Shown here: positions 33,888 through 61,843 of the stretch, piece by piece
How positions within the stretch are numbered: position 1 is the first letter of the stretch
How the letters are laid out: every line of letters begins with the position of its first letter
Assembly (NCBI RefSeq): GCF_005930475.1
Contig: NZ_SJEW01000005.1
Location: 1 to 64,000 of the forward strand
Length of the DNA: 64,000 bases
Direction: 5' to 3'
DNA from: Modestobacter altitudinis
GTDB lineage: Bacteria; Actinomycetota; Actinomycetes; Mycobacteriales; Geodermatophilaceae
Notes under the pieces: generated by a model
Told to the model about the DNA's origin: nothing
The model's database searches: none
Seen by the model: the letters and a program-made list of their open reading frames with translations, nothing else
Made by a program: the position numbers and the translations under genes

Positions 33888-33930
33888 AAGCGGGAGCAGT
33901 GCTCCACCGGAAATCACGATCGACGATGTG
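33888..33930 (-). promoter_or_regulatory. Putative LysR-type promoter of the CUT2 operon (weak match)
   Basis: On the minus strand CACAT (33930-33926), 12 bases, TTTCCG (33913-33908) and, 24 bases downstream, TTCGCT form the arrangement seen at five other operons in this window. The -10 is poor. It lies about 80 bases before the binding-protein ATG. Confidence 0.35.
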
Positions 33931-33990
33931 ATCCATGCCGCTGCCCGATGCCTGAGCCGAGCGACTCACCGGCTGTACGTCGTGACCGAC

Positions 33991-34007
33991 CCGACCTGTC
34001 AGGTCGG
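33991..34007. repeat. Inverted repeat at the end of the VOC gene
   Basis: CCGACCTG and CAGGTCGG flank a single T and cover the stop codon of the VOC gene. It could be an operator or a weak terminator stem; with only one unpaired base it is a poor RNA hairpin. Confidence 0.35.
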
Positions 34008-34445
34008 CGGCCGTCCGATCAGCTCCACCAGGTTGCCCTCCGGGTCCCGCACCCAGGCGAACCACCAGCCGGCCTCGGGAGACGGTGCGGGCGCGAGGAC
34101 GGCGGCCTCTCCCCCGGCGACCAGTTGCCCGTAGCTCGCCAGCAGGTCGGGGACGACGAAGGCGACGTGCCCGAAGCCCCATGTGGCTGCCGCCTCCACG
34201 GGACTGGCTGCCCGCAGGCCAGGCGACCCGCTGCCGCGGGCCAGCAACTCGAATCGTCGTCCCGCGTCGTCGATCAGCATCACGATCCGCAGGTCGAGCG
34301 CCCCCAGGACGAACCGGGACTGCACTCGGTGACCGAAGGCGCTGACGTACCACTCGACCATCGCCTCGAGGTCGCGGACGTTGAGGCCCACGTGGTCGAG
34401 GCGCGGCCGGTCGCCGGGCTCCACGGGATCAGGAGTCAGTCTCAC
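33999..34445 (-). CDS. VOC superfamily (glyoxalase/bleomycin-resistance-type) protein
   Basis: A 148-residue single VOC module pair: LDHVGLNVRDLEAMVEWY at the N-terminus, GFGHVAFVVPDLLASYGQ in the middle and VRDPEGNLVELIGRP at the end. The His, His and Glu of the metal site are in place. Could be an epimerase, lyase or small dioxygenase. GTG 34445 overlaps the stop of the upstream SDR-like gene; an in-frame GTG at 34454 is the alternative. The two genes probably form a small operon. Confidence 0.75.
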   Translation of the reverse strand: MRLTPDPVEPGDRPRLDHVGLNVRDLEAMVEWYVSAFGHRVQSRFVLGALDLRIVMLIDDAGRRFELLARGSGSPGLRAASPVEAAATWGFGHVAFVVPDLLASYGQLVAGGEAAVLAPAPSPEAGWWFAWVRDPEGNLVELIGRPPT

Positions 34446-35167
34446 GGCTGCCACGGCCGGCCAGTCGGGGTGACCACCAGCTCGTAGGTGACGGCCCGCG
34501 GGTCCTGGTCCGCGAGGAACCGGACGGCCTCGGCCACCGCCGCCTGGTCGACGCGCTCCAGCCTGGGGACGCGCTCCTGCCAGCGCCCTTCATCGGTGGC
34601 TGGACTGTCCAGCGGTGCATCGACGACGAGGACGGCGGCGCGGATGCCCTGGGGCCGCAGTTCCTGCGCTGCCGCGTGGGTCATGGCCCGCAGCCCGGCG
34701 TGGGCCGCCGACCAGAGGCCGTGACCAGCTGCCGGTCGGCGGGCGGAGTGATTGGTGACCTGGATCAACACGCCACCGTTGCCGCCGGCCTGCAGGGCCC
34801 GGGCGCCCTCGCGGAGGAAGGAGAACCCGGCTTCGAGCACCGGCACGGTCCACCACTGCAGCGCGTCGTCCCGTGCCTCGGCCAGCGAGCCGCCGTGGAA
34901 CCCCTCCGCCGGACGGGCTCGCGCCAGGCTCACCGCGTTCACCACGACGGTGAGGTCCACCAGTTCGACCCGGGCGCGGTCGAGAACGGCGGCGAGGGCG
35001 GTCGGGTCGCGGATGTCGCAGGTGTAGGCGCGGGCTCCCCGAGCTCGGGTCTCCCGGGCGGTCCCCTCGGTCAGCGAGACCCCTGCCGCCGTCCAGCCGT
35101 CGGCGAGGAACCGGTCGAGTATGGCGCCGCCGAGGTTGCGCCCGCCGAGGACGACGACACCGGACAC
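34442..35167 (-). CDS. Atypical SDR-fold protein lacking the catalytic Tyr/Lys
   Basis: A 241-residue Rossmann-fold protein starting VSGVVVLGGRNLGGAILDRF. The glycine motif is GGRNLGG rather than TGxxxGxG. Where classical SDRs have YxxxK, the sequence is HGLWSAAHAGLRAMTHAAAQ, so Tyr and Lys are absent. NAD-binding may persist without classic dehydrogenase chemistry. Coupled to the VOC gene. GTG 35167 follows GAGGAG. It may be a noncatalytic or differently acting member of the family. Confidence 0.7.
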   Translation of the reverse strand: MSGVVVLGGRNLGGAILDRFLADGWTAAGVSLTEGTARETRARGARAYTCDIRDPTALAAVLDRARVELVDLTVVVNAVSLARARPAEGFHGGSLAEARDDALQWWTVPVLEAGFSFLREGARALQAGGNGGVLIQVTNHSARRPAAGHGLWSAAHAGLRAMTHAAAQELRPQGIRAAVLVVDAPLDSPATDEGRWQERVPRLERVDQAAVAEAVRFLADQDPRAVTYELVVTPTGRPWQP

Positions 35168-35213
35168 CTGATCTCCTCGGTCTGCAGGGCACACCCCAGT
35201 GCCCCGGACGACG

Positions 35214-36230
35214 CTACGCAGACGTGGCGTCCCCAGGCACCGTCGGTCTCGGCATACCAGGCATGAGCTGCCCCGCTTCGGCCGGCGACGGCGGCTGCGC
35301 ACTCGCCTGCGCTGGCTCGTCGACGGCCAGTTCCACGGCGACTTCCTCCAGCACGCCGACCAACCAGCGATGCCCGGCGTCGACCGTCCGGGAGGCGTGC
35401 CACCATGCCGTCTCCAGCATGTCCACGAAGCCGAAGGGTGGCTCGACCAGCCGAAACCGCTCGTCGGCCAGGAACCGGTGGACGAGCCGCTCGGGCACGA
35501 CGGCGACAGCCTCCGTCCCGAGCACGGCGAAGGGCAGCAGGAGGAAGCCCCGGGCCTGGATCGCCACGCGGCGGACGATGCGGAGCTGTCCGAGCACCCG
35601 GTCCATCGGTGTGACGGCGTCGTTGTGGAACACGGTCACCGCATGCGGCATCGCCTGCAGTGCGTCGAGATCGAGGCCGCCGTCGCGGAGGTAGGGATTG
35701 TCCCGGGCCACCAGGCACACCAGGCGGTCGTGGAACAGGAAGGTGTGTTCCCCGGCGAACCCGAAGCCGAGCGGACCGACCACCAGGTCGTACCGCAACA
35801 GGGCACCCGGCGAGTTGACCAGGTCGTCCGGGAGGTCGACGAAGCGCAGCCGCACCGACGGGGCCTTCTCGCGCACCCGTCTCCTCAACGGTTCGAGCAG
35901 CACGGTCATCGCATAGTCGCTGGCCGTCACCGTGTACACCCGGTCGCTCGTCCTCGGATCGAAGACGTCCGTCACCCGCAGCGCCTCTCGTAGCAGGCGC
36001 AGCGCCTCCTGCACCTGCGGGAGCAGGTCGCGCGCCAGCGGGGTGAGTTGGTACTCCCGGCCGACCCGGACCAGCAACTCGTCGTTGAAGTGGCGGCGGT
36101 AGCGCCCCAGCACGCCGCTCATCGCAGGCTGAGCCATCCCGACCTTCGCGCCGGCGCGGGTGAGGTTCCCCTCCTCGAGCACAGCCCCGAGCGCGGCCAG
36201 CGTGTTGAGGTCGAAGGCCCCCAGGTCCAC
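35214..36230 (-). CDS. LysR family transcriptional regulator 1
   Basis: A 338-residue LTTR. The N-terminal helix-turn-helix is FDLNTLAALGAVLEEGNLTR followed by AGAKVGMAQPAMSGVLGRYR. The effector-binding domain spans about residues 90-300; the C-terminal 35 residues (Pro/Ala-rich) exceed the usual length. It is divergent from LysR 2 with a 111-bp gap. It could control the SDR/VOC pair downstream or the extradiol operon nearby. GTG start; ribosome binding site weak. Confidence 0.85.
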   Translation of the reverse strand: MDLGAFDLNTLAALGAVLEEGNLTRAGAKVGMAQPAMSGVLGRYRRHFNDELLVRVGREYQLTPLARDLLPQVQEALRLLREALRVTDVFDPRTSDRVYTVTASDYAMTVLLEPLRRRVREKAPSVRLRFVDLPDDLVNSPGALLRYDLVVGPLGFGFAGEHTFLFHDRLVCLVARDNPYLRDGGLDLDALQAMPHAVTVFHNDAVTPMDRVLGQLRIVRRVAIQARGFLLLPFAVLGTEAVAVVPERLVHRFLADERFRLVEPPFGFVDMLETAWWHASRTVDAGHRWLVGVLEEVAVELAVDEPAQASAQPPSPAEAGQLMPGMPRPTVPGDATSA

Positions 36231-36341
36231 CGCTCCTCCATCGCGACATCGTCGTCACGGCCGCCCCGATGACGGAGCGCAGCTGAGGGCGCAGCCTATC
36301 CTCGGCCGCAGCCGAGCAGGGACCAGTCAGGGAGGAGCCGC

Positions 36342-37268
36342 ATGTCCGGGGTCCGCGGCATCGACTTCAACCTCCTCGTCGCCCTCCGTGCCCTCCTCGA
36401 GGAACGCAACGTCACCCGAGCTGGGCTGGCGGTGAACATGAGCCAGCCGGCGATGAGCGCGGCGCTGGCGCGGCTGCGCGAGCACTACGGGGACGAGCTG
36501 CTGGAGCGCACCGGACGGACGTACGAGTTGACGACGCTGGCGCAGGAGCTGCTGCCGCAGGTGTCGCACGCGCTCGACGCCGTCACCACGGCGCTGGAGC
36601 CGTGGGCGGGCTTCGACCCGTCCACCAGCACCCGCCGGTTCACCGTGTCGGGGTCGGACTACGCGCTGGCCGTCCTGCTGGAACCCCTGATGACGGTGGT
36701 CCACCGGCGGGCACCGGGCATCACCGTCGACTTCGACCCGGTCCCGTTGCCAGGTAGCGACGTCGACGCCCACCTCCTGCGCCGTGATGTCCTGATCGCC
36801 GCGATGGGCTACGCCTTCCCCGGCCGCAGGCAGGTCGTCTTCTCCGACCGCTTCGTCTGCATCGTCGCGGGGAGCAACCCACGGCTGCGCGACGGCCGGC
36901 TGACCCGGGAGGACCTCGCGGAGCTGCCGTACGCCGCCGCCTTCGGTGGGCAGCTGCAGACGCCGGCCGACGCAACGCTCCTCGAGGCAGGGATCACCCC
37001 GCGCGTGGAGGTCTCGGTCCAGGGCCTGCTCGCGCTGCCCTTCGCCGTGTCGGGCACCGACCTGTGCGCGTTCGTGCCCGAACGGCTCCTCGACCGGTGC
37101 CCCCCGACCCTCGACCTCGCGGTTGCCGACCTGCCGCTCGACGATCCCGAGCTCGCGGAAGCTGCGCACTGGCACCCGTCCAGGCAGGACGATCCGAGCG
37201 TGCGCTGGCTCCGGGAGGTGCTCAAGGAGGTCTCGGCTGCTCTGGGGCACGGATTCGCCACGGCCTGA
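36342..37268 (+). CDS. LysR family transcriptional regulator 2
   Basis: A 308-residue LTTR with HTH IDFNLLVALRALLEERNVTR and MSQPAMSAALARLREHYGDE. It lies immediately upstream of the extradiol dioxygenase gene in the same direction, and the promoter between them has the CAT/TAT-N12-TTTC architecture. It is thus the prime candidate activator of that operon. ATG 36342 follows AGGGAGGAG. Effector-binding domain normal in length. Confidence 0.87.
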   Translation: MSGVRGIDFNLLVALRALLEERNVTRAGLAVNMSQPAMSAALARLREHYGDELLERTGRTYELTTLAQELLPQVSHALDAVTTALEPWAGFDPSTSTRRFTVSGSDYALAVLLEPLMTVVHRRAPGITVDFDPVPLPGSDVDAHLLRRDVLIAAMGYAFPGRRQVVFSDRFVCIVAGSNPRLRDGRLTREDLAELPYAAAFGGQLQTPADATLLEAGITPRVEVSVQGLLALPFAVSGTDLCAFVPERLLDRCPPTLDLAVADLPLDDPELAEAAHWHPSRQDDPSVRWLREVLKEVSAALGHGFATA

Positions 37269-37295
37269 TCGGCACCCATCGTGAGGGCGATGCCT

Positions 37296-37343
37296 GGTAT
37301 GGCCGCGGTGTATTTCTGAGAGCCCCGTCACCGCGCCTAGCGT
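37296..37343 (+). promoter_or_regulatory. LysR-type promoter of the extradiol dioxygenase operon
   Basis: GGTAT (37296-37300), 12 bases, TTTCTG (37313-37318), then 19 bases to the -10 TAGCGT (37338-37343). This layout recurs at 49284-49331 and, with variations, at 57501, 48322, 61797 and 33930. The transcript would have a leader of about 45 bases with GGAG before the ATG. Confidence 0.55.
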
Positions 37344-37396
37344 CGATGACGACATCGGCCGCCACGTGCAGCCCGGTCCTCGATGCAGGAGCGAAC

Positions 37397-38329
37397 ATGA
37401 CCTCTCAGCTGATCACCCATCTCCGGCACGTCGACCTGGCCGTGCCGGACTACGACAAGCAGCTGGCCTTCTACACCGACACCTGGGGCCTGACCCAGGT
37501 CGCCGACGACACGGGGATCGCGTTCCTCGCCGCCGAGGGCTCCCCTGAGCAGTACGTCGTCCGGCTGCGCCACGGCGAGAAGCGCATGGACCTCGTGTCC
37601 TTCGGCGCCGCGAACGCAGCGGACGTCGACGCGCTCGCCGACCGGCTGATCGCCGACGGCGTCCAGATCGTGCGCGAGCCGCAGAAGCTGGACACCCCCG
37701 GAGGCGGCTACGGCTTCCGCTTCTTCGACGTGGACGGTCGCGTCGTGGAGGTCTCCAGCGACGTCGCCCTGCGGCAGCACCGCAAGATCGAGGAGCGTGA
37801 GGCCATCCCCGTCAAGCTCTCGCACTGCGTGGTCAACTCCCCGGACCCCACCCGGATGCGCGACTGGTACGCCAAGCACCTCGGCTTCCGGTTGTCCGAC
37901 ACGCTGGCGCACCCGCACGCCGGTGACCTCATGTACTTCATGCGGTGCAACGAGTGGCACCACTCGTTCGCCATCGCCCGCGGTCCGCACGCCTCCCTGC
38001 ACCACGCGTCCTTCGAGATGCGCGGCATCGAGGAGTACATGCGCGGCACCGGCAAGATCCTGCGCGCCGGCGCCCGGATGGTGTGGGGACCGGGACGGCA
38101 CCTGGCCGGTGACAACACGTTCTCCTACTTCCACGACCCGCACGGCAACACCATCGAGTACACGACCTCGATCGCCCTCCTCGACGAGGACACCTGGCAC
38201 CCCGGCATCCACGACGTCACCGACCCGCTGACCCAGGACCAGTGGGGCACCGCAGACCCGATGAGCGAGTCGGTCGCCAGCACCTCGTTCAACGACCCCG
38301 ACGTCCTGTTCACCCCTCCCCCGGTCTGA
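37397..38329 (+). CDS. Extradiol ring-cleavage dioxygenase of the VOC family
   Basis: A 310-residue type I extradiol dioxygenase with two VOC modules. The N-terminal module is HLRHVDLAVPDYDKQLAFY; the catalytic module carries LSHCVVNSPDP, HHASFEMRGIEEY and GNTIEYTTSI, giving the His, His, Glu Fe(II) site. It also has DPHGN near residue 240. Likely cleaves a catechol or similar diol with O2. A paralogue with the same layout is at 55531. Followed 3 bp later by an alpha/beta hydrolase. ATG follows CAGGAGC. Substrate not known. Confidence 0.87.
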   Translation: MTSQLITHLRHVDLAVPDYDKQLAFYTDTWGLTQVADDTGIAFLAAEGSPEQYVVRLRHGEKRMDLVSFGAANAADVDALADRLIADGVQIVREPQKLDTPGGGYGFRFFDVDGRVVEVSSDVALRQHRKIEEREAIPVKLSHCVVNSPDPTRMRDWYAKHLGFRLSDTLAHPHAGDLMYFMRCNEWHHSFAIARGPHASLHHASFEMRGIEEYMRGTGKILRAGARMVWGPGRHLAGDNTFSYFHDPHGNTIEYTTSIALLDEDTWHPGIHDVTDPLTQDQWGTADPMSESVASTSFNDPDVLFTPPPV

Positions 38330-38332
38330 CCG

Positions 38333-39247
38333 GTGTTCCTCGCCACCCACCCAGCGCTCGCCCGGCTGGCCGGTCACGCCTTCCAGCGCATCGCGCCGAT
38401 CGCGCTGGCGAAGGCCGCCCCGGCGGTGCGGTTCGCCGACGTGCCAGCACGGACCGAGGTCCTCTCCGCCTCCAGCCGCCTCGGTCCAACGTCGGTGACG
38501 GCCTACCGCCCGGCCGGTGCCGATTCGTTGCCGGCGGTCTACGTGAACTTCCACGGTGGTGCCTTCCTCGTCGGGCACCCCGGCCAGGACGACCCCTGGT
38601 GCCGCTACCTGGCCGCAGCTGCGGGAGTGGTGGTGCTCAACGTCGACTACGCACTGGCGCCGCAGCACCCCTTCCCGGCAGCCGCACACCAGGCGTTCGA
38701 CGTGGTCCGCTGGGCCGCCGAGGCCGGCGGTGACCACGGCTGGGACGGCACTCGGCTGGCGGTCGGGGGGCAGAGTTCTGGTGCCTCGCTGGCCGCGGCG
38801 GCCGCACGGCAGGCCCGGGACGCGGGCGCACCGCCGATCACCCTCCAAGTCCTCAACTACGGGGTCTTCGACCAGGCCGGTGACCCGGCCGACAAGCCGA
38901 AGCCCGTGCCCAGGCCCCAACTGCCGCTCCCGGTGCTGGACCTGTCCATGGGCGCCTACCTCCCCGACCCCGCACAGCGACGGCATCCGCTGGCGTCACC
39001 GGTCTTCAGCCACCCGGACGGGCTGAGGGGCATCGCCCCCGCCCTGGTCGTCGCGGCGGAACACGACCGCCTCCGCGCCGAGTCCGAGACCTACGCGGAC
39101 CTGCTCGACCGAGCGGGAGCCCTGCAGGAACTCATCGTGGTGCCCGGCGCTGACCACGCCTGCAACATGCTGGCGAAGGACGACCGCCAGACCCGGGAGA
39201 TGTACGACGCCATCTCGGGACGTGTGCGCGACGCCCTGAAGGCCTGA
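38333..39247 (+). CDS. Alpha/beta hydrolase, hormone-sensitive-lipase type
   Basis: A 304-residue esterase. The oxyanion-hole motif is VNFHGGAFLVGHPGQ, the nucleophile elbow GGQSSGASLAAAAA near residue 145, the Asp in AEHDRLRAE and the His in GADHACNML. Starts GTG 3 bp after the dioxygenase stop, so it is cotranscribed and may hydrolyse the ring-cleavage product or a precursor ester. HSL-type carboxylesterases usually act on short-chain esters; C-C hydrolases usually lack HGGG, so an ester or lactone substrate is more likely. Confidence 0.84.
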   Translation: MFLATHPALARLAGHAFQRIAPIALAKAAPAVRFADVPARTEVLSASSRLGPTSVTAYRPAGADSLPAVYVNFHGGAFLVGHPGQDDPWCRYLAAAAGVVVLNVDYALAPQHPFPAAAHQAFDVVRWAAEAGGDHGWDGTRLAVGGQSSGASLAAAAARQARDAGAPPITLQVLNYGVFDQAGDPADKPKPVPRPQLPLPVLDLSMGAYLPDPAQRRHPLASPVFSHPDGLRGIAPALVVAAEHDRLRAESETYADLLDRAGALQELIVVPGADHACNMLAKDDRQTREMYDAISGRVRDALKA

Positions 39248-39513
39248 CTTCGTCATCTGGCCCGCCACCTCTGCTCCCCCACCACGTCGGGCCCCACACC
39301 CGGTCACCGGCCGCGGGACGCCCGAGGCAGCCGTCAGGAGGAGTGAGCCAGGCAGGGGGAGGTCGGGGAGCTGGACGGACGTCGGGGAGCTGGACGGACG
39401 TCCACGGGCCGGTGGAGGTGGTCGCACCTCGGTGCCGCTGTACGGGAGGACCTCGGCCACGGTCCGCTGGTGGGCGGCCGCCATCCGCCGGACCACCGGC
39501 ATCGGCGTAGCCC
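39248..39513. other. Non-coding interval at the suspected island boundary
   Basis: Nothing recognisable except a tandem duplication at 39362-39399. The open frames on the minus strand are not supported by motifs. Confidence 0.4.
39362..39399 (+). repeat. Tandem 19-bp direct repeat
   Basis: Two exact copies of GTCGGGGAGCTGGACGGAC, followed by a third copy's first three bases. It is close to an integrase remnant and tRNA fragment; may be replication slippage in decaying DNA. Confidence 0.75.
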
Positions 39514-39688
39514 GTTCCCCGGCTCGTGGCGCGCCAGGGTGCCCAACGAGACCTTGAGGTGAGCTGCCGCCTCAGGCACCCCTCCATCGCCGTCACGGGC
39601 GACGTCCATGGGCACGTGTCGCCGGAGGTTGCGCGGGATGCAGTGCGGACGCTCGGCGAGGTCCTCGCCAACTGGCGGCCGGCTGGTG
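39514..39688 (+). pseudogene. C-terminal remnant of a tyrosine-type integrase
   Basis: The plus-strand frame reads DLEVSCRLRHPSIAVTGDV, then HGHVSPEVARDAVRTLGEVL. It matches the end of actinobacterial phage/ICE integrases, where the usual form is LGHSSIAVTxDxYxHV. The active-site Tyr position is His (DVHGHV) and there is no N-terminal catalytic Arg region, so the gene is dead. It lies about 55 bp from the second tRNA 3'-fragment, the classic integrase-att arrangement. Confidence 0.6.
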
Positions 39689-39742
39689 GTGGTCGGGATG
39701 GTGGTCAGACCGCCCCTGACGAGGAGCAGGGCCGCTCCGCTC

Positions 39743-39841: not shown

Positions 39842-39978
39842 CGGCGAGGCGACCATCGGCTGCGTGGATGCCTGCACATGGGCAGATGTCATTTCCGCTG
39901 ACCCACGGCGGTCAGCAGACTCGCAGGCGGCAGTGGCGCCGCTCAGCCGGGATCGGCGCGCCGAGCTCCGGAGGTCCT
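39842..39978. other. Short spacer before the 3-hydroxyacyl-CoA dehydrogenase operon
   Basis: No -10 box matching the LysR-type architecture is evident here. A GGAGG ribosome binding site is at 39970-39974. Confidence 0.4.
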
Positions 39979-47258: not shown

Positions 47259-48280
47259 GCGTCCAGCTCCAGGAGTCGGGCGGCGTTGCCGCCGCGGATG
47301 GCGTCGGTGGTGGCGGCGTCGAACCCGGCCGCCTCGAGGCGGTCGACGGGGTCCTCGACGCCCATGTCGAAGGGGTAGTCGCTGCCGAGGGTCACCTGGG
47401 TCGGACCCATGACGGTGACCAGGTGGCGCAGCTGCTCGGGGGTGTAGACCAGCGAGTCGACCCAGGTGCGGCGCAGCAGCTCGGACGGCGGCTGCTCGGT
47501 GGTGCGGGCGTCGACCCGGGCCGCCCAGGCGTGGTCGGCGCGCACGACGTAGCTGGCCAGGTAGCCACCGCCGTGCGCCGACCAGATGCGCAATCGCGGG
47601 TGTCGCTCCAGGAGGCCGGAGAACACGATCCGGGACAGGGCCAGCGCCGTCTCGGTCGGGTTCCCGACGGTGTTGAACAGGTAGTAGGCGTCCAGCCGCT
47701 CCCCCAGCGTGCATCCCCAGGGGTGGATCAGGACTGCGGTGCCGAGCTCCTCGGCAGCGGCCCAGAAGTCGGCCAGCGACGGGTCGTCCAGCTCCCTGCC
47801 GGGGCCGGCCGAGGTGGAGATCTGCACGCCCCGGACGGCGTGGTCGCGGACGGCGCTCTCCAGCTGGCCGACGGCCAGGTCGGGGTGCTGCAGCGAGACC
47901 GTGGCGATGGGGAGCAGCCGGTCAGGCTGCTGGGCGCAGAAGGCGGCCACCGACGCGTTGCTGGCCGCCGTGTAGCGGATCGCCAGGTCGCGATCTGTCC
48001 ACAGGTGCGGGACCGGTGCGGCGCTCACCGCCTGGACGTCGACGCGGGCGGCGTCCATCGAGGCCAGCCGGAGGCCCGCGTCGGTCAGCTTCGGGCCGAT
48101 CTCGGCGATCTGGCGCAGGTTCAGCTGCAGGGACGCGGCGCCCAGCGACGCCGCGTCGACCCCGCGCTGCTGCGCGAGACCGGGCTGCCCCTCCAGGAGG
48201 GCGTCGGCGGTGGGGACGGCGACGTGTGCGTGGACGTCGATGGCGGGGTGGTGTGACGGCGCTGACACGTCCGCCAGCAT
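47255..48280 (-). CDS. Amidohydrolase-2 family enzyme (ACMSD/decarboxylase type)
   Basis: A 341-residue TIM-barrel metal enzyme. The metal ligands are IDVHAHVAV (His-x-His near residue 17), AVLIHPWGCTLG, RIWSAHGGGYLAS and LGSDYPFDMG (Asp). This is the ACMSD/gamma-resorcylate/5-carboxyvanillate decarboxylase group, whose members often decarboxylate aromatic or ring-cleavage acids. First gene of the six-gene operon. ATG 48280 has no ribosome binding site; a GTG at 48268 (residue 5) could be the true leaderless start. Confidence 0.86.
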   Translation of the reverse strand: MLADVSAPSHHPAIDVHAHVAVPTADALLEGQPGLAQQRGVDAASLGAASLQLNLRQIAEIGPKLTDAGLRLASMDAARVDVQAVSAAPVPHLWTDRDLAIRYTAASNASVAAFCAQQPDRLLPIATVSLQHPDLAVGQLESAVRDHAVRGVQISTSAGPGRELDDPSLADFWAAAEELGTAVLIHPWGCTLGERLDAYYLFNTVGNPTETALALSRIVFSGLLERHPRLRIWSAHGGGYLASYVVRADHAWAARVDARTTEQPPSELLRRTWVDSLVYTPEQLRHLVTVMGPTQVTLGSDYPFDMGVEDPVDRLEAAGFDAATTDAIRGGNAARLLELDA

Positions 48281-48322
48281 GGGTCGTGCGGGCCACCGAC
48301 GGAACCGCTGATCCGGTATGCC
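48275..48322 (-). promoter_or_regulatory. Putative LysR-type promoter of the amidohydrolase operon
   Basis: On the minus strand GGCAT (48322-48318), 12 bases, GTTCCG (48305-48300), then a weak -10 CATGCT (48281-48276). The same GGCAT-N12-TTTCCG geometry occurs at 57501-57479. A GTG at 48268 would be leaderless. Confidence 0.4.
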
Positions 48323-48329
48323 CTCGTAT

Positions 48330-49250
48330 TCACGGCGCGGATGACTCGGGCTCCTCGGGTCCCGACTCCGCGCCGAGGATCAGCCGGCGCAGCCACTGGT
48401 GGGCCGGGTCCCGCTGAGCGGACCGGTGCCAGTACAGGCACTCGACGAGCGGCTCCCCCAGGAACGGCAGCTCCACGACCCGGACGTCGTAGCCGAGCGC
48501 CAGCCGGCGCGCCAGCCCGGCGGGGAGGAAACCGACCCGGTCGGTGCCCTCCACGAGGGCCGGCACGGCGGAGAAGGACTCGACGTTGACCGCGCCGGTG
48601 GCGGTGATCCCCCGGACGGTGAGCAGCCGCTCGATGTGCGCCCCGGAGCCGAGGTCGTGGAAGAGGCCGACCAGGGAACGCCCGACCAGCCCCTCCTCGG
48701 TCAGGTCCCCCGCCGGCTGGTCGGCATCGACGACGGCGACCCACGGCTCGCTGGACAGGGCTGCGTTCGGGTGCCCGCTGAGGAACGCCCGGGGAGCCAG
48801 CAGGAGGTCGACACCGCGCATCACGGTCTCGCTCTCCCGGACGAAGCCGTGGTCGATCTGCACCAGGTCCACCGTGATGCCGGGGGCGACCCGGCGCAGC
48901 TCGCGGAGCCGCTCGGCGAGGAGCGTCATGCCGTAGTCACTGGCCGCGATCCGGAAGTGCTGCACCGCGGTCGCCGGATCGAAGGACGCCTGGATGCGCA
49001 GCGCCCGCTCGACCATGCCCAGCGCGGGCTCCACCGCGTGCTGCAGCTCGCGGGCGACCGGGGTCAGGGCCAGCCCGCGCCCCTCGCGGACGAGCAGCTC
49101 GTCGCCGAACTGCCGACGCAGCCGGGCGAGCGCGTTGCTCATGGCCGGCTGGCTGAGGCCGACGACCTGTGCCGCCCGAGTCACGTTCCGCTCCTGCAGC
49201 AGCGCCCGGAGCGCGACGAGCAGGTTGAGGTCCGCTCCCGCCAGGTTCAT
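48330..49250 (-). CDS. LysR family transcriptional regulator 3
   Basis: A 306-residue LTTR with HTH ADLNLLVALRALLQERNVTR and VVGLSQPAMSNALARLRRQF. It lies between the amidohydrolase operon, transcribed in the same direction, and the Liv transporter operon, divergent. It probably regulates both, since a LysR-type box is present on each side. The GATGC-ttt-GCATC repeat at 49277-49289 may be its own site. Effector domain complete. Confidence 0.87.
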   Translation of the reverse strand: MNLAGADLNLLVALRALLQERNVTRAAQVVGLSQPAMSNALARLRRQFGDELLVREGRGLALTPVARELQHAVEPALGMVERALRIQASFDPATAVQHFRIAASDYGMTLLAERLRELRRVAPGITVDLVQIDHGFVRESETVMRGVDLLLAPRAFLSGHPNAALSSEPWVAVVDADQPAGDLTEEGLVGRSLVGLFHDLGSGAHIERLLTVRGITATGAVNVESFSAVPALVEGTDRVGFLPAGLARRLALGYDVRVVELPFLGEPLVECLYWHRSAQRDPAHQWLRRLILGAESGPEEPESSAP

Positions 49251-49274
49251 CTCAGACTTCTCCCATTCACCACA

Positions 49275-49331
49275 TTGATGCTTTGCATCAGAAGGAACCA
49301 TTTCCGTGTGATCCGGGCAACCCCCTAGCGT
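49275..49331 (+). promoter_or_regulatory. LysR-type promoter of the Liv transporter operon
   Basis: TGATGC and GCATCA separated by three T's (49276-49290) form a palindrome of LTTR kind. TGCAT (49284-49288), 12 bases, TTTCCG (49301-49306) and -10 TAGCGT (49326-49331) follow in the same arrangement as at 37296. The -10 ends 8 bp before a GTG, so the mRNA is probably leaderless. Confidence 0.6.
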
Positions 49332-56469: not shown

Positions 56470-57458
56470 GAGCGCTCCTCGAGGATGCAGTGGTTGGCCT
56501 GAAAGCCCAGGCCGGTGATGGTGGAGTCCATGCGGTCGCCGGCGCGCAGCAGTCGGCCGCGGGGCAGGCCGTTGCCGGCCGGGCTGCCGGTGAGCACGAG
56601 GTCACCGGGGAGCAGGGTCGCCACGGTCGAGCAGTGCGCGATGACGCGCGCGACGTCGAAGAGCATGTCCTCGGTCGACTCGTCCTGCATGACCTCGCCG
56701 TTGAGCTGCAGCTCGATGCGCAGGTCGGACGGGTCCGGGACGGCGGCGCGCGGCACCAGGACCGGACCGGTGGGCAGGAAGGTGGGCGAGTTCTTCGCCG
56801 CCAGCCAGTCCGCACCCAGGGCGGGCGCGTCCCGGCGGAAGATCCGCTCGCGCAGGGTGAGGTCGTTGACGATGGTCCAGCCGGCGACGACGTCGAGCGC
56901 GTCCTCGGGAGCGACCCGGCGAGCGCGGCGCCCGATGACGGCGGCCAGCTCCAGCTCCCAGTCCGGCTGCTGCCCGTCGAACGGCAGGACGACGTCGTCG
57001 TAGGCGCCGCAGATGGCACTGGGCAGGCCCTGGAAGACGTAGGGCGGATGCTGCAGCCGGGTGTCCATCTCCGCTGCCGCATCCGCGCGGACCTGCTCCA
57101 CCGTGCGGCCGTCGGAGGCGTCGTGGTGGGCGACGGCGATGTCGATGACGTGCGTGCGGTAATTGGCGCCGGCCTGGAACACCTGCCGGGGCTCGACGGG
57201 GCTGAGCACCGTCAGCCCGTCCAGCGGCCGCCACTCCCGCGTCGAGCCGGCCAGGTCCTCGAGCACGGGAAGCGCGTCGTCCCACCGGTCCAGGAGCTGC
57301 CGGGTGGAGGACGGCCGACCCAGTTCCGGGCGGTCGGAGAGGTCGAGCACCCGGTCGCGGACGAGGAGCGCGGGGAAGGCAGGGCCGTCAGGTGTCGCCA
57401 GCGACGCGAGAGCCCAGCTGCCGGCGTGGTCGATGGTGAGCGGCACGATGACCAGCAT
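56466..57458 (-). CDS. Fumarylacetoacetate hydrolase-family protein (FAH3)
   Basis: A 330-residue FAH protein. Motifs QVFQAGANYRTHVIDIAV, DWELELAAVIGRRARRV, GWTIVNDLTLRERIFR and LTGSPAGNGLPRGRLLR. The segment after the motifs shows the FAH C-terminal loop ITGLGFQANHCIL. ATG 57458 lacks a ribosome binding site and coincides with the predicted -10 (GATGCT); GTG 57446 would fit a leaderless mRNA and shortens the protein by four residues. First gene of the FAH3-VOC2-FMO3 operon. Confidence 0.84.
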   Translation of the reverse strand: MLVIVPLTIDHAGSWALASLATPDGPAFPALLVRDRVLDLSDRPELGRPSSTRQLLDRWDDALPVLEDLAGSTREWRPLDGLTVLSPVEPRQVFQAGANYRTHVIDIAVAHHDASDGRTVEQVRADAAAEMDTRLQHPPYVFQGLPSAICGAYDDVVLPFDGQQPDWELELAAVIGRRARRVAPEDALDVVAGWTIVNDLTLRERIFRRDAPALGADWLAAKNSPTFLPTGPVLVPRAAVPDPSDLRIELQLNGEVMQDESTEDMLFDVARVIAHCSTVATLLPGDLVLTGSPAGNGLPRGRLLRAGDRMDSTITGLGFQANHCILEERS

Positions 57459-57501
57459 CAGCCGCCCGGTGGGCCGAGCGGAAACACCGGTTTGGTATGC
57501 C
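57454..57501 (-). promoter_or_regulatory. Putative LysR-type promoter of the FAH3 operon
   Basis: Minus strand: GGCAT (57501-57497), 12 bases, TTTCCG (57484-57479), then, 25 bases after the first T, a -10-like GATGCT (57459-57454). Same geometry as the extradiol operon promoter at 37296. The divergent LysR 4 is the candidate regulator. Confidence 0.45.
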
Positions 57502-57545
57502 TGGCCATCCGGCCTGCTTATGGCGCCGGTCACGGAGGAGTACCG

Positions 57546-58481
57546 GTGGAGCTGCCCAGCCTCGACCTCAACCTGGTCGTCGTCCTGCACGCCCTCCTCG
57601 AGGAGCGCAACGTCACCCGCGCCGGTGAACGGGTGGGGCTGAGCCAGCCGGGCACCAGTTCCGCGCTCGCCCGGTTGCGCCGCCACTTCGACGACCCGCT
57701 GCTGGAGCGGGTGGGCACGGTGTACGAGCTGACCCCGTTGGCGCAGGCTCTGCAGGGTCAGCTCGGCTCGACCATGGAACAGCTGCAGCGGGTGCTGGCG
57801 GCCCAGCCGAGGTTCGACCCGGGCACCGCAGAGCGCCGCTTTACGGTGGCCTGCTCGGACTCGGTGCTGACCGTCCTGGGTCCGGGGCTGGTCGCCGCGG
57901 TGACACGTGCGGCACCCCGGGTGAGCCTGGACCTGCGCTCGTTGGACGCGCGGGTCGTCACCGACCCGCTCGCCCTGCTGCGCGACGTCGACGTGCTGGT
58001 CGTCCCCCGAGGGCTGTTCTCACTGCCCGACGTGCCGAGCGTCGAGCTCTACCGGGACCGCTGGGTGTGCGCCACCTGGCGCGGGAGCACCGCGGTCGGC
58101 GACCGGCTGAGCCTCGCCGACGTCGGCGAGGCGCGCTGGGTCATGCCGTTCCAGGAACTGCTCATGGCCTCCCCGGCCGACGCGGCGCTGGCCACGCTGG
58201 GCGTGGACCGGCACTGCGCCGTGCGGGTGGAGAGCTTCAGCGTGCTCGACCGGCTGGTCGTCGGCACCGACCTGCTGGTGCTCTTCCACGAACGACTGGC
58301 CGGCGACCTCACGGCACGCGACCTGCGGGTGGTGGAGCTGCCCGTGCAGCTGCCGCCGATCACCGAGACCGCCTGGTCGCACCCCTCGCGGCGGCTGGAC
58401 CCGGGCCACCGCTGGCTGTTGGACCTGCTCACCGAGGTCAGCGCCGGCCTCGATCAGCCGACGACGTCCCCCAGCAGGTAG
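57546..58481 (+). CDS. LysR family transcriptional regulator 4
   Basis: A 311-residue LTTR with HTH LDLNLVVVLHALLEERNVTR and VGLSQPGTSSALARLRRHFD. It is divergent from FAH3, so it likely activates the FAH3-dioxygenase-FMO3 operon. Its 3' end overlaps the TetR 2 gene's 3' end by 28 bp (convergent). GTG follows GGAGGAG. Confidence 0.87.
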   Translation: MELPSLDLNLVVVLHALLEERNVTRAGERVGLSQPGTSSALARLRRHFDDPLLERVGTVYELTPLAQALQGQLGSTMEQLQRVLAAQPRFDPGTAERRFTVACSDSVLTVLGPGLVAAVTRAAPRVSLDLRSLDARVVTDPLALLRDVDVLVVPRGLFSLPDVPSVELYRDRWVCATWRGSTAVGDRLSLADVGEARWVMPFQELLMASPADAALATLGVDRHCAVRVESFSVLDRLVVGTDLLVLFHERLAGDLTARDLRVVELPVQLPPITETAWSHPSRRLDPGHRWLLDLLTEVSAGLDQPTTSPSR

Positions 58482-59119
58482 CGCACCGCGGTCTCGCCCA
58501 GGTCGGCGACGAACTCGTCGTCGACCACGGGCATCGGCGTGGCGAAGGCCGGGCCGTAGGCGATCCGGATGATCGTCGTGGCGAACACCGTGCCGAAGCA
58601 GGACCGGACGGCGGCCTCCGGGTCCTCGTGCCGGATGACGTCGCGCGCCTGCAGCACCACGCCGGCGAACCCCTCCCCCAGTGCCTGGCTGTACCGGGAG
58701 CCGCGCCGGCGGACCTCGACGTGCGACGCCGAGACGAGTACGACGGCGCGCAGGTACCGCTCGTGGCGCAGCGCGATGGAGACCGTCACGGCCACAGCCG
58801 CGCGGACGAGTTGCGCGGGCGCCAGAGCGGTCCAGCGCGCGTCGTCGGCGAACACCTCCTGATCGGCCTGCAGTCCGGCGATGCCGTGCTCGTAGACGGC
58901 GAGGAAGAGGGCGTCCTTGCTGGTCGTGCGGGCGTAGAGCGCCGTGGGGGCGACCTGGGCCTGCTCGCAGACCGCGGCGATGGTGAAGCCGTCGTAGCCG
59001 CGGTCCTCGAGGACCGCGACGCCGGCGTCGAGCACCCGCGCCCACGTCTCCCGGCTCCGGCGCTGCAGCGGCGGCCGGACCGCCAGGTCCGGAGCAGAGG
59101 CGTCGTCCACGGCGACCAT
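58454..59119 (-). CDS. TetR family regulator of FAD-monooxygenase module 2
   Basis: A 221-residue TetR repressor, paralogue of 18648-19304. Both share LAVRPPLQRRSRETWARVLD and AQVAPTALYARTTSKDALFL. The ligand domain differs more than the HTH, which may give a different effector range. Divergent from FMO4 with a palindromic operator between. GTG/ATG region at 59119 has no strong ribosome binding site. Confidence 0.88.
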   Translation of the reverse strand: MVAVDDASAPDLAVRPPLQRRSRETWARVLDAGVAVLEDRGYDGFTIAAVCEQAQVAPTALYARTTSKDALFLAVYEHGIAGLQADQEVFADDARWTALAPAQLVRAAVAVTVSIALRHERYLRAVVLVSASHVEVRRRGSRYSQALGEGFAGVVLQARDVIRHEDPEAAVRSCFGTVFATTIIRIAYGPAFATPMPVVDDEFVADLGETAVRYLLGDVVG

Positions 59120-59136
59120 CCTCCTCGGTGGGCTGC

Positions 59137-59164
59137 TTGACAGGACTGTGACGCGTCCTGCTGT
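59137..59164 (+). promoter_or_regulatory. Promoter of FAD-monooxygenase module 2
   Basis: TTGACA (59137-59142) and TGCTGT (59159-59164) with a 16-base spacer containing TGTGACGCG, as in module 1. The TetR operator begins nine bases downstream. Confidence 0.55.
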
Positions 59165-59172
59165 CCTCGCTT

Positions 59173-59192
59173 AAGGTAGCGAACGCTACCTT
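59173..59192. promoter_or_regulatory. TetR operator of module 2
   Basis: AAGGTAGCG and CGCTACCTT separated by AA: a perfect 9-bp inverted repeat. The core GTAGCG-N2-CGCTAC is shared with the module 1 operator, so the two repressors may cross-regulate. Confidence 0.7.
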
Positions 59193-59215
59193 TCCTACTG
59201 GATGAGGTGGGTCCC

Positions 59216-60424
59216 GTGTCCGTTGTTCCTCCCGCCGGCCCGCGCGGCCGGGGCGCCGTCCTCGGCGCCGGCCCGGCCGGCATGGCCGCCGCCCTCGGCG
59301 CCCTGCAGGCCGGCCACGACGTCGTGATCTACGAGCGCTACCGCGAGGCCCGGCCGGCAGGGAACATCCTCAACCTCTGGCCACCGCCGCTGAAGGCGCT
59401 CCGCTCCCTCGGCGTGGACACCGACGACCTCGGCGCCCCCACCGACTCGGAGTTCCGCAACGTGCGGGGCAGGGTCCGGGTGCGGGTGAAGCTGGACGAG
59501 GACGTCAAGCGTGAGTTCGGCGGCGGGTTCATCGGGCTGCTCCGGCCGGAGCTGTACGAGCGGATGCTCGCCGCCCTCCCGGACGGCGTGATCCGGTTCG
59601 GTCAGCAGGTGGAGCGGATCGAGCAGGACGACCGCGCGGTCACCCTGCACTTCGCCGACGGCAGCACCGCCGAGCACGACGTCCTGGTGGGCGCCGACGG
59701 GATCGACTCGCTGGTCCGGCGCACACTCTGGGGCGATGCCCCCAAGCGGGAGCACCGGCTGCACATCTTCGGCGGGTTCACCTTCGCCGAGGTGCCGGGC
59801 GCGACGCCCAACACCTGCATGCTCACCCACAGCCCGACCACCCAGGGCAGCTGGACGTCGATCCGCAACAAGGGCCGCGACGGCCACCAGTGGTGGGTGC
59901 TCACTGCCACCGACCCCGACGCCCCCGCGCCGGACGACCTCAAGGCCGCCGCCACCGCGCTGGCCGCGGAGTTCCCCGCTCCGTTGCCCGGCCTGATCGC
60001 GGCCACCCAGCCGGACAGCGTGCAGCGCTGGGTGCTGCGCGACAGGCCCGCACTGAAGCAGTGGTCGAAGGGCCGCGCCACGCTCGTCGGCGACGCCGCC
60101 CACCCCACCTCGCCCTACGCGGCCTATGGCGCGGGGATGTCGATCGAGGACGGGTACTTCCTCGGTCGGGCGCTGCGCGGGGTCGACCTCACCGACCCGG
60201 TCGCCGTCTCCCGCGCCCTGCAGACGTACGAGGACCCGCGCAAGCCGCACACCGCCAAGCAGGTGCAGATGGCCTATGTGCTGGGCAAGATCTTCCACTA
60301 CGCCCGGACACCGCTGCGGCCCGTCCGCGACTTCGTCTTCGACCACACGCCCTTCCTGCAGAAGGTGGCCGGCGACTCCAACCCCCGTGAGATCAACAAG
60401 CAGCTCGCCCTGATCGAGAACTGA
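59216..60424 (+). CDS. FAD-dependent monooxygenase, module 2 (FMO4)
   Basis: A 402-residue group A flavin hydroxylase, close paralogue of 19412-20620 with the same length. FAD motif GAGPAGMAAALGALQAGHD, shared REARPAGNILNLWPPPLKAL, DG motif VLVGADGIDSLVRRTL and GD motif LVGDAAHPTSPYAAYGAGM. GTG 59216 is chosen by alignment with FMO1 (MTV/MSV start); GTG 59207 is the alternative. Followed 3 bp later by the Abm gene as in module 1. Confidence 0.88.
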   Translation: MSVVPPAGPRGRGAVLGAGPAGMAAALGALQAGHDVVIYERYREARPAGNILNLWPPPLKALRSLGVDTDDLGAPTDSEFRNVRGRVRVRVKLDEDVKREFGGGFIGLLRPELYERMLAALPDGVIRFGQQVERIEQDDRAVTLHFADGSTAEHDVLVGADGIDSLVRRTLWGDAPKREHRLHIFGGFTFAEVPGATPNTCMLTHSPTTQGSWTSIRNKGRDGHQWWVLTATDPDAPAPDDLKAAATALAAEFPAPLPGLIAATQPDSVQRWVLRDRPALKQWSKGRATLVGDAAHPTSPYAAYGAGMSIEDGYFLGRALRGVDLTDPVAVSRALQTYEDPRKPHTAKQVQMAYVLGKIFHYARTPLRPVRDFVFDHTPFLQKVAGDSNPREINKQLALIEN

Positions 60425-60427
60425 GCC

Positions 60428-60724
60428 GTGCTGATCATCTTGAGTTCCGCCACTGCCACCCCCGGCCGCCGCGACGAACTCATCGCAGCGGCCCGCGCGA
60501 TCGCCGCGGTCACCCGCAGCGACCGCGGCTGTCTGTCCTATGACTTCGCCGCCGACCTCGACGACCCCGACCGGGTCCTCGGCGTCGAGGTGTGGGCCGA
60601 CCGGGCGGCGCTCGACGAGCACATGGGCCACGACCACTCGCGGGAGTTCCTCGCCGCGGTGCCCGGGATGGTGACCGGTGAGCCGGTCATGGCGTTCCAC
60701 GGGGTCCCTGCCGTGGAGGCCTGA
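60428..60724 (+). CDS. Antibiotic biosynthesis monooxygenase domain protein, module 2
   Basis: A 98-residue ABM protein, paralogue of 20624-20971 without its C-terminal tail: LIILSSATATPGRRDELIAA, GCLSYDFAADLDDPDRVLGV and ALDEHMGHDHSREFLAA. Tightly coupled to FMO4; probably acts on the same intermediate. GTG start. Confidence 0.8.
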   Translation: MLIILSSATATPGRRDELIAAARAIAAVTRSDRGCLSYDFAADLDDPDRVLGVEVWADRAALDEHMGHDHSREFLAAVPGMVTGEPVMAFHGVPAVEA

Positions 60725-60798
60725 CGGCGGCCACCGGCCGATGACACCGGCGACCGGGCGGACGGGCCTGCGACCACTGACCGCGGCCGTCCAGCCGG

Positions 60799-61749
60799 TC
60801 AGGAGCTCCCGGTGACGGTGATGCCCGGCGCCGGCTCGGCCTCCTCCCGGGCCACCACGGACAGCTGCTCGCGCAGCCAGACGTGGCCGGGGTCCCGGTC
60901 GCGGCGGGAGTGCCAGAACGCCGACTGGCGGAGCGGCTGCAGGTCCATCTGCGGCTCCAGCAGCCGGATGTCCGCGGCCCCGGCGACGCGCCGGGCCAAC
61001 CGCTCGGGGAGCACGGCGACCATGTCCGTGCCGGCCAGCATGAAGGGCATGGGCACGAACCCGCTCGCAGTCGCGGCCACCCGACGCGTGCACCCGACCG
61101 CGTCGAGCTGTTCCTCGACGATGGACCGTCGCCCCTCCACGACGTACTCCAGGTAAGGCGAGGCGGACAGGAGCTCAGCAGTGAGCCGGTCCTCCGCCCG
61201 CGGGTGCTCGCGCCACACGGCGCCGACGAAGCGGTCGGTGATGACCGGCAGCTGCGAGCAGTCCGACAGCGACCGCTGGTCGACGATCTGGTCCGGCAGG
61301 ATGGCGACGTCGACCTCGTCCCGCTGCAGAGCGTCGAGGTACCGGGAGCCGACCGGCGCGGCGTCCAGCCGGAGGTCCGTGGCGAGCCCGGAGAGCCGAG
61401 CGATGAGCGGTCGGATGAGGGTCACCCCGACGTAGTCGCTGGCCACGACCGAGAACCGGCGGGCGTCCCGGGTCGGGTCGAACACGGGCGGACGGACGAT
61501 GGTCTGCTCGATCGTCGCCAGCACCTCACGCACCGGCTCGATGAGCGACTCGGCCCGGGGCGTGAGCTCCATGTACCGGCCGTTCTTGTACAGCAGCTCG
61601 TCACCCAGCACCCGCCGCAACCGGGCCAGCGCCGTGCTGGTCGCCGGTTGGGACAGGTGCAGGCTCTCCGCGGCCCGGGTGACGTTCTTCTCCCGCAGCA
61701 CCGCGTCCAGCACCACCAACAGGTTCAGGTCGACCTGTCCGAGCTTCAC
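60799..61749 (-). CDS. LysR family transcriptional regulator 5
   Basis: A 316-residue LTTR with HTH VDLNLLVVLDAVLREKNVTR and LHLSQPATSTALARLRRVLG. GTG 61749 is chosen for its GGAGGAGG ribosome binding site; in-frame ATGs at 61788 and 61779 would add 10-13 residues. Divergent from the D-2-hydroxyacid dehydrogenase operon and likely its activator. Confidence 0.85.
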   Translation of the reverse strand: MKLGQVDLNLLVVLDAVLREKNVTRAAESLHLSQPATSTALARLRRVLGDELLYKNGRYMELTPRAESLIEPVREVLATIEQTIVRPPVFDPTRDARRFSVVASDYVGVTLIRPLIARLSGLATDLRLDAAPVGSRYLDALQRDEVDVAILPDQIVDQRSLSDCSQLPVITDRFVGAVWREHPRAEDRLTAELLSASPYLEYVVEGRRSIVEEQLDAVGCTRRVAATASGFVPMPFMLAGTDMVAVLPERLARRVAGAADIRLLEPQMDLQPLRQSAFWHSRRDRDPGHVWLREQLSVVAREEAEPAPGITVTGSS

Positions 61750-61796
61750 CCGTGCCTCCTCCGAGGTCGTGACGCCCATCACGACCATGGATCGCA

Positions 61797-61843
61797 GCCA
61801 ACCACGCTGTGCATTTCCGGACGTCGCAGGTCCTCCCTAGCGT
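61797..61843 (+). promoter_or_regulatory. LysR-type promoter of the D-2-hydroxyacid dehydrogenase operon
   Basis: TTTCCG (61814-61819) and -10 TAGCGT (61838-61843) are spaced by 18 bases. The upstream element, 12 bases before TTTCCG, is GCCAA rather than GGCAT. A short leader with GAGGAGG follows. Confidence 0.5.

Follow-up and report, generated by a model that had tools for sequence, protein, structure and literature searches.

The question raised by the first 64,000 nucleotides of contig NZ_SJEW01000005.1 of Modestobacter altitudinis (the window) is whether the operons beside its five LysR genes are controlled through a common operator and, if so, by one regulon or by several. A sequence-only reading had proposed a 5-mer-N12-TTTC(C/T)G element followed by a -10 upstream of six operons, under one cross-talking regulon of duplicated LysR-operon units. 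From the comparisons reported here, the sites are, with a probability of roughly 0.8, operator-promoters of LysR activators of the NodD subfamily that work as several sub-regulons. The elements exist and are conserved, but they appear to belong to several related sub-circuits rather than to a single one. The operons behind the operators probably break down plant aromatics.

Operator architecture

The element had been delimited wrongly, since an ATC-N9-GAT-like box, which ends 4-5 bases upstream of the 5-mer, was missed. The full operator spans 43-45 bp and consists of a LysR T-N11-A box near ATC-N9-GAT, a spacer of N21-22, and TTTCCG at -35, usually 18-19 bp from the -10. Relative to a start placed from the -10, the T-N11-A box would lie near -65, as it does in activator promoters of LysR-type regulators. 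Exact ATC-N9-GAT is found at four of the nine contig sites (61778, 39855, 66175 and 68871) and at both R0 sites, while 49265, 57521, 48342 and 33949 are one-base variants and the R2 site has N8. The register AT-N11-AT is kept at eight of the nine contig sites; the exception, the R2 site, is shorter by one base. The -10 varies among sites (TAGCGT, TAACGT, GATGCT, CAGACT), and none is clear at 33907.

The earlier pattern was exact at four of its six positions, 37296 and 49284 on the plus strand and 57501 and 33930 on the minus strand, and absent at 61797 and 48322. The 12-base spacing, said to be constant, breaks down at 61797, one of the claimed best cases, since the 5-mer there, GCCAA, is outside the proposed set, and at 48322 the hexamer is GTTCCG rather than TTTC(C/T)G. 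The three plus-strand promoters were correctly read, with TTTCYG-N18/19-TAGCGT found at 37313, 49301 and 61814. On the minus strand the -10s are not TAGCGT; they are GATGCT (57459-57454) and CATGCT (48281-48276), and the site at 33930 is without a clear -10. The list of six also omitted a seventh operator in the window, at 39854-39898 on the plus strand, as well as those beyond it at contig positions 66174 and 68870 and in a further cluster at 77.2 kb. The features are collected in Table 1.

Table 1. Positions of operators, -10 elements and genes in the window.
Feature	Position	Strand	Remarks
Operator, CUT2 sugar ABC operon	33907..33950	-	ATC-N9-CAT variant; score 24.8, untrained
LysR R1 (NodD-like)	35214..36230	-	PF00126 + PF03466; sister of R2 in tree
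LysR R2 (NodD-like)	36342..37268	+	PF00126 + PF03466; G055 ortholog 84%
Operator, extradiol operon	37277..37319	+	ATC-N8-GAT, one base shorter; aligned with L046
-10 TAGCGT, extradiol operon	37338..37343	+	TACCGT in aligned G055 sequence
Extradiol dioxygenase-like, extradiol operon gene 1	37397..38329	+	PF00903
D-type operator, 3-hydroxyacyl-CoA dehydrogenase/enoyl-CoA hydratase operon	39854..39898	+	score 39.1
-10-like CAGACT, D operator	39916..39921	+	also in L035, L041, L032, L073
-10-like CATGCT, amidohydrolase operon	48276..48281	-	GATGCT in four other genomes
Operator, amidohydrolase operon	48299..48343	-	ATC-N9-AAT variant; score 30.3, untrained
LysR R3 (NodD-like)	48330..49250	-	PF00126 + PF03466; orthologs 79-86%, four genomes
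Operator, Liv ABC transporter operon	49264..49307	+	ATT-N9-GAT variant; score 44.0
-10 TAGCGT, Liv operon	49326..49331	+	Liv GTG start 8 bases on (49340)
-10-like GATGCT, FAH operon	57454..57459	-	invariant in four aligned genomes; GTG 7 bases on (57446)
Operator, FAH/extradiol/monooxygenase operon	57478..57522	-	ATA-N9-GAT, spacer one base longer; score 35.6; aligned in four genomes
LysR R4 (NodD-like)	57546..58481	+	PF00126 + PF03466
TetR gene	58454-59119		in cluster
LysR R5 (NodD-like)	60799..61752	-	PF00126 + PF03466
Operator, 2-hydroxyacid dehydrogenase operon	61777..61820	+	ATC-N9-GAT; score 39.0
-10 TAGCGT, dehydrogenase operon	61838..61843	+	TAGCGT in five of five aligned genomes

Conservation across genomes

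Comparison with other genomes bore out that one grammar precedes all six operons, belongs with a family of related LysR proteins and recurs: every one of the six sites has a counterpart in one or more further genomes. Seven groups were compared for conservation (without R0, R2 and B, and with four of the five genomes of the 48343 group, the fifth being one base short), and in all seven the operator was better conserved than both flanks. For example, conservation in the R5 group was 0.95, against 0.48 and 0.69 in the flanks, and 39 of the 44 positions of the 61777 operator are invariant across five genomes. The 33907 operator also lies upstream of a related binding protein in G055 (L046:7431-7474), with 39 of 44 positions identical and flanks of 29% (upstream) and 73% (downstream) identity. 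The D-type operator is present in five genomes; the L039 sequence was too short to show the -10 in the CAGACT comparison. The amidohydrolase operator overlaps the R3 stop codon and is conserved in five of five aligned genomes. A GTG (48268) stands 7 bases past its -10-like CATGCT, and thus a leaderless transcript is possible. The -10 of the Liv operon is TAGCGT in the window and in L035, TAGCTT in L042, and absent from L033 and L039.

Assignment of sites to LysR genes

All five LysR proteins in the window have an N-terminal HTH_1 and a C-terminal LysR_substrate domain. Their recognition helices, expected to be SQPAMS or SQPGTS, fit in three of five cases (SQPAMS twice, SQPGTS once); the others are AQPAMS and SQPATS. 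SQPAMS also occurs in three LysR proteins of Sinorhizobium meliloti pSymA. The similar helix is a subfamily trait.

If the sites formed a single regulon, any of the five LysR proteins would act on any site, and the whole would have arisen by duplication of a LysR-operon unit. The one grammar at all sites and the similar helices agree with this, as do G055, which has an R0-type operator with no R0 gene found, and Actinoplanes, where the gene next to the amidohydrolase operator is an R5 ortholog in R3's position. Such a regulon is nevertheless unlikely for several reasons. First, each site group has its own conserved sub-type sequence, distinct from that of the others. Secondly, the sub-types track different LysR genes, as set out below. 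Third, the window LysR pairs shown are just 37-45% identical, with long inner branches in the tree. For example, R2 and R4 are 42% identical, whereas the extradiol enzymes of their units share 69.6%. Duplicated units can thus be upheld only in an ancient sense. In addition, orthologs from Frankiaceae and Pseudonocardiaceae resemble R5 more closely than R1-R4 do, and relatives of R5 in Frankiaceae, Micromonosporaceae and Pseudonocardiaceae are 56-78% identical to it.

Of 108 family genomes, five have the R4 site form, each time beside a NodD-like LysR gene, and the control gave none. Four of these genomes carry R4; in the fifth, G106, the site precedes a different NodD-like LysR gene by 154 bases. 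The 33950 form is present in two of seven genomes, which are the two with R1/R2; since the form was derived from those two, only its absence from the other five is informative. The form GGAT-N19-CATTTCCG (R5/B/C) gave 17 matches, 12 in the five genomes with R3 and R5 and five in the other 103 of the 108; the backward control gave five over all 108. R3 and R5 co-occur in the same five family genomes, and their targets are therefore inseparable from family data alone. C-type sites are also found at Frankia, Pseudofrankia and Actinoplanes loci carrying R5 orthologs, in genomes with no R3 match above 43% identity. For the R3, 48343 and D types, the search covered selected stretches of the relatives' genomes. 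G086 keeps the D site although neither R1 nor R2 was found there and its extradiol gene is fragmented; thus the D site is probably not a target of R2.

The several-sub-regulon reading would place at least nine contig operators under the window's five LysR genes. Because operators outnumber regulators, one regulator probably serves several operons. R1/R2 would control the extradiol and CUT2 operons; R3 the Liv and probably also the amidohydrolase operon; R4 the FAH operon; and R5 the dehydrogenase operon and two operons just past the window. The R0-type operator of G055 and the R5 ortholog at the R3 position in Actinoplanes may leave room for cross-talk. At each operator a LysR tetramer would hold the box, the site that LysR proteins commonly recognise, at about -66 relative to the predicted start. 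Binding of an aromatic ligand would shift the second dimer onto the operator half that separates the box from TTTCCG, and this shift would let RNA polymerase use the weak promoter.

Occurrence in the genome

A mixed scoring model was trained on eight site groups. It was run on 651,617 bases, about one eighth of the genome with LysR loci over-sampled; whole-genome statements come from pattern scans only. There it gave 14 matches above 20 bits, all on the contig of the window or at a single additional locus with a NodD-like LysR gene. The next best match scored 14.8, and reversed sequence 11.8. When each group was left out in turn, six of eight groups outscored every match outside the listed sites, where matches at the 11 sites listed and at 13.2 kb of L067 did not count as background. 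For example, the D-type operator scored 27.5 against 15.0 for the best non-site, and the FAH operator 26.0 against 16.9. The R0 sites (10.1 bits) and the R2 site (5.2 bits) fell among the background without their own groups; thus the operator grammar is not uniform. The R2 site at 37277 is the weakest operator, and its G055 counterpart was not among the matches above 15 bits. With the R3 and R0 groups left out together, R3 scored 21.6, R0 was lost and C119:8952 fell to 15.7, with the background at 15.5.

A model derived from R0-type sites alone (27, all from other genomes), applied to 393,446 bases, scored 67.3 at R0's own site and 13.6 at 49264; nothing else in these bases, the remaining window sites included, exceeded 8 bits, and a mixed model was therefore needed. 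To cut redundancy, 19 of the 27 R0-type sites were used at first and 15 in the leave-one-out and final models. Three of five R3 sites were used in training, the other two having AAT for GAT, and the G055 R2 site was not used. No match above 14 bits was found in the R1/R2 intergenic region or at six other LysR loci scanned, one of which starts just 186 bases from its contig end.

Whole-genome pattern scans gave 6 matches against 0 in the control, 2 against 0, 7 against 4 and 6 against 1. The earlier pattern, scanned as YAT-N12-TTTCYG, was borne out in part: six of its seven matches in 5.18 Mb lie on the 131-kb contig, with four in the backward control. The looser YAT-N12-YTTCY (25 matches, 22 in reversed sequence) was uninformative.

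A housekeeping promoter alone (-35 TTTCCG, -10 TAGCGT), shared without a common regulator site, is very improbable. TAGCGT does occur 20 times in the 393,446 bases and CCTAGCGTC three times there outside the window, and TTTC-N18-21-TAGCGT is found twice on other contigs. However, the upstream box stands in fixed register and is conserved across genomes, and the operator is common to sites with other -10s. Moreover, AT-N10-GAT-N21-TTTC has six matches in the whole genome (four on this contig, one on C134 and one beside a sixth related LysR gene), five of them on the two contigs that carry NodD-like LysR genes, against none in the control. Binding by another regulator of the cluster, such as the TetR protein, favouring GGCATACC/GGTATGCC half-sites is hardly credible either, for GGCATACC, which was tried as a common element and is shared by 57478 and 48299, is present in just two of the seven window operators, and the sites lie in regions divergent from or flanking LysR genes, with a LysR box.

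Comparison with known systems

No specific name for the LysR proteins was found in NCBIfam. BsrA and LeuO were the top two families for five of the six proteins, and BsrA and LelA for R4. Scores reached at most 171 of 480 bits (BsrA) and 148 of 262 (LeuO), far below the curated cut-offs, and thus the proteins are not members. With R3 as sole query, the nearest solved structures were DntR-type 2uye and others (E 3e-30) and PcpR 4rns (9e-15), which are only distant homologs. The entry 2uye, listed as 'regulatory protein', we take to be DntR; 4rns is listed as a PCP degradation activator. The recognition and activation sites of LysR regulators and their sliding-dimer mechanism are described in the extract of PMC4730206.

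The NAH7 system has aromatic catabolism in common with the operators here. Its LysR protein, presumably NahR, is 26-30% identical to ours. The ndo genes are preceded by ATTCACGCTGGTGAT and salA by ATTCATGTTGATGAT, both of the form AT-N10-GAT, and this recognition box is close to ATTCACCACATTGAT of R3. The full geometry was not matched in the 82,232 bases of NAH7 (one match in reversed sequence), with no TTT at N21.

The sites here have the geometry of rhizobial nod boxes. For NodD, the extract of PMC5596368 gives ATC-N9-GAT and a 47-bp box. In a 45-kb stretch of S. meliloti pSymA, YAT-N10-GAT-N21-TTT matches five sites, with none in the reversed control. The record is unannotated. Three of the five sites also have YATC-N9-GATG-N6-ATC, as do many R0-type sites. 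One of the five immediately precedes a LysR gene whose identity is 37% with R2 and 35% with R3. All six LysR proteins (R0-R5) are 28-37% identical to the three pSymA LysR genes. The sites also differ. Of the five pSymA sites, four have the terminal sequence AATC(G/A)ATTTTACC, with the nod-box tail TTTTACC, whereas the actinobacterial sites end CATTTCCG-like; the full 47-bp consensus was thus not found here, the downstream half being CATTTCCG-like and not of AATCGATTTTACC type. Several actinobacterial sites are without the second ATC, and the targets are catabolic or transport operons rather than nodulation genes.

No description of actinobacterial NodD-type operators came up in searches of an open-access library. 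The present sites provide a testable operator model for this LysR subfamily in Actinobacteria, and this model predicts how operons of aromatic catabolism group together, among them two that lie just past the end of the window. They also place the nod-box layout outside Pseudomonadota, Frankia loci included, and thus make the origin of nod boxes testable. Tentatively, the layout may not be a rhizobial invention; it may represent an old class of NodD-like LysR operators for plant-aromatic catabolism in Actinomycetota, Frankia among them, with regulators and operators partly interchangeable, from which the control of nodulation was built.

Genomic setting

The window has a G+C content of 72.2% and is part of a contig (C117) of 130,765 bases in a 5.18-Mb genome. 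This genome carries 12 LysR genes above the Pfam cut-off, of which five (R1-R5) lie within the window's region and a sixth of the same NodD-like clade (R0) lies on contig C119. The operons of the window encode extradiol dioxygenases, FAD monooxygenases, FAH-fold enzymes, an amidohydrolase, a cyclase, a CoA transferase, a 3-hydroxyacyl-CoA dehydrogenase/enoyl-CoA hydratase and ABC transporters, a gene content that would fit aromatic-ring catabolism.

Layout of the predicted operator element

The sequence-only reading had placed a 5-mer, 12 bases and TTTC(C/T)G, then 18-19 bases and a -10, before six operons. This pattern is exact at four of the six sites; at one a single hexamer base differs, and at 61797 the 5-mer is GCCAA. 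Aligning the regions upstream of orthologous LysR genes defined a larger element, with constant blocks amid drifting flanks: YAT(C)-N9-GATN, 20-21 bases, TTTC and then usually 18-19 bases to the -10. At 49284 the 5-mer forms the right arm of an inverted repeat (ATGC-TTT-GCAT from 49278) inside this element, and the 12 bases are the distance to the -35.

Exact ATC-N9-GAT occurs at 61778, 39855, 66175, 68871 and both R0 sites. The first half is ATT at 49265 and ATA at 57521 (ATC in the relatives G086 and G041), and the second half is AAT at 48342 and CAT at 33949. The R2 site has N8 instead of N9, and the R4 and D (39854) sites have one additional base after GATN. The same layout precedes R0-type genes in 27 other family sequences read; R0-type sites mostly show CTTC where others show TTTC.

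If transcription starts at the predicted point 7-8 bases past the -10, the box would be centred at about -66, where LysR proteins usually have their recognition site; PMC4730206 places the LysR RBS at -65 and the ABS sites at -35/-10. In the Liv, FAH and amidohydrolase operons a GTG lies 7-8 bases past the -10, which suggests leaderless mRNA.

Genome scans and conservation

AT-N10-GAT-N21-TTTC has six matches in the whole genome (49265, 61778, 66175 and 68871 on C117, 8953 on C119 adjoining R0, and one on C134) and the N22 form matches only 39855 and 57521; the backward sequence gave none for either. YAT-N12-TTTCYG has seven matches, six of them on C117, with four in the control.

A two-block weight matrix was built from eight site groups. 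When each was left out in turn, R3, R5, R4, B, C and D (B and C being further site types) still scored 25.9-34.9 bits, compared with 14.5-16.9 for the best non-site, while R0 (10.1 bits) and R2 (5.2 bits) were missed. Omitting R5, B, C and D jointly still gave 24.1-30.5 bits versus 18.1. Three sites outside training scored 30.3 (48299), 27.4 (C119:8952) and 24.8 (33907). In the 651,617 bases of the own genome that were scored, the next match after the cluster at contig 77158-77263 reached 14.8 bits (reversed maximum, 11.8), and the six other LysR loci had nothing above 14 bits, one having only 186 upstream bases on its contig.

In 342,000 bases of relatives there were 31 matches above 20 bits (15 in the training lists and 16 untrained, by our count; reversed best, 12.6), and the R2 site of G055 escaped the matrix. 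Fourteen loci of Frankia, Pseudofrankia, Actinoplanes, Blastococcus, Pseudonocardia and Saccharopolyspora (231,239 bases) gave 21 matches above 20 bits, all untrained, in 10 of the loci (reversed best, 10.8). Conservation was measured as mean pairwise identity of the site versus its 45-base flanks. All six sites first proposed hold up by conservation across genomes as predicted operators, and the 48299 site is retained in 5 of 5 aligned genomes despite overlapping the R3 stop codon.

Operator conservation and coordinates of associated features
Feature	Position	Site identity	Flanks (upstream/downstream)	Observation
R3 site		0.78	0.35/0.45	
48343 site	48343	0.84	0.50/0.59	
R5 site		0.95	0.48/0.69	
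R4 site		0.77	0.59/0.72	
D site	39854	0.80	0.31/0.63	
C site		0.75	0.46/0.46	
33950 site	33950	0.89	0.29/0.73	Two genomes
TetR-family gene	58454-59119			Divergent from FAD monooxygenase, amid LysR cluster
Dehydrogenase start	61870-61908			Ortholog-conserved start codon opens 12-codon frame ending ATGA at gene start; other four aligned genomes continue in frame
Operator just past window	L067:2174-2217 (contig 66174)			No LysR gene of its own; extradiol dioxygenase downstream
Operator just past window	L067:4870-4913 (contig 68870)			No LysR gene of its own; FAD monooxygenase operon downstream
Match cluster	L067:13158-13263 (contig 77158-77263)			Three overlapping matches, 20.8-22.2 bits, upstream of FAH-like gene; -10-like TAACGT and TACGGT, one per strand
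Second R0 operator	L047:8952-8995 (C119)			Right behind R0 stop codon, paralleling 48299 after R3; also in L032 and L040
Extradiol ortholog	L035:13680-14422 (G086)			Ortholog of gene 37397; seems broken
R4-form operator	G106:C1:533121-533151			Ends 154 bases before NodD-like LysR gene 35% identical to R3
Extra NodD-like LysR genes	L034:4490-5392; L038:12217-13122			Two Blastococcus genomes, near C-type operator; branch within R0 clade
pSymA top model match	L127:5931-5974			Tail TTTCTCC, not TTTTACC; ~520 bases before another LysR gene

Proposed assignment of regulators to operators

The pairing of regulators with operators rests on neighbourhood and co-occurrence, and within the family R3 and R5 are inseparable. 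The NodD-like regulators found are R0-R5 in the own genome (G000); R0, R3, R4 and R5 in G086 (plus one more) and G025 (plus two more); R0, R3 and R5 in G002 (plus one more) and G079; R0 and R4 in G041; and R1 and R2 in G055. A search of the G086 genome found no R2, although the D operator and its operon persist there.

The R4-form operator has five matches in 108 family genomes (control, 0). Four are in genomes that have R4 (G000, G086, G025 and G041); the fifth is in G106, for which no close R4 ortholog is among the matches listed. The 33950 form (at most three mismatches) occurs only in G000 and G055 among seven genomes. GGAT-N19-CATTTCCG, the R5/B/C form, has 12 matches in the five genomes with both R3 and R5, as against 5 in the remaining 103 of the 108 genomes (control, 5 over all 108). 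Nothing in the eight non-family genomes searched matched R3 at more than 43% identity, yet C-type sites, typed by eye, occur at the R5 loci of four of these genomes (L073, L074, L075 and L077). This favours R5 as the regulator of the C sites.

A single cross-talking regulon had been proposed, but the site sub-types track different LysR genes. Cross-talk may nevertheless occur, since an R0-type site is present in G055, whose genome search found no R0, and in Actinoplanes R5 takes the place of R3 beside the amidohydrolase operator.

Comparison with known systems

The solved proteins nearest R3 are of the DntR type and PcpR. Five YAT-N10-GAT-N21-TTT matches (none in the reversed sequence) occur in 45 kb of S. 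meliloti pSymA, a stretch whose record carries no gene annotation and which is taken here to include nod genes. Four of them terminate in TTTTACC, the tail of nod boxes, and the fifth in TTTCTCC. The actinobacterial model ranks the same five sites best (34.9-19.8), with background up to 19.5 in this AT-richer DNA, and the pSymA site with the TTTCTCC tail resembles the actinobacterial form more closely than it does nod boxes. In NAH7 the recognition box precedes salA and the ndo genes, but the spacing of the actinobacterial operators is absent. The actinobacterial element has the geometry of a nod box and would work like one; judged by the full consensus, it is no nod box.
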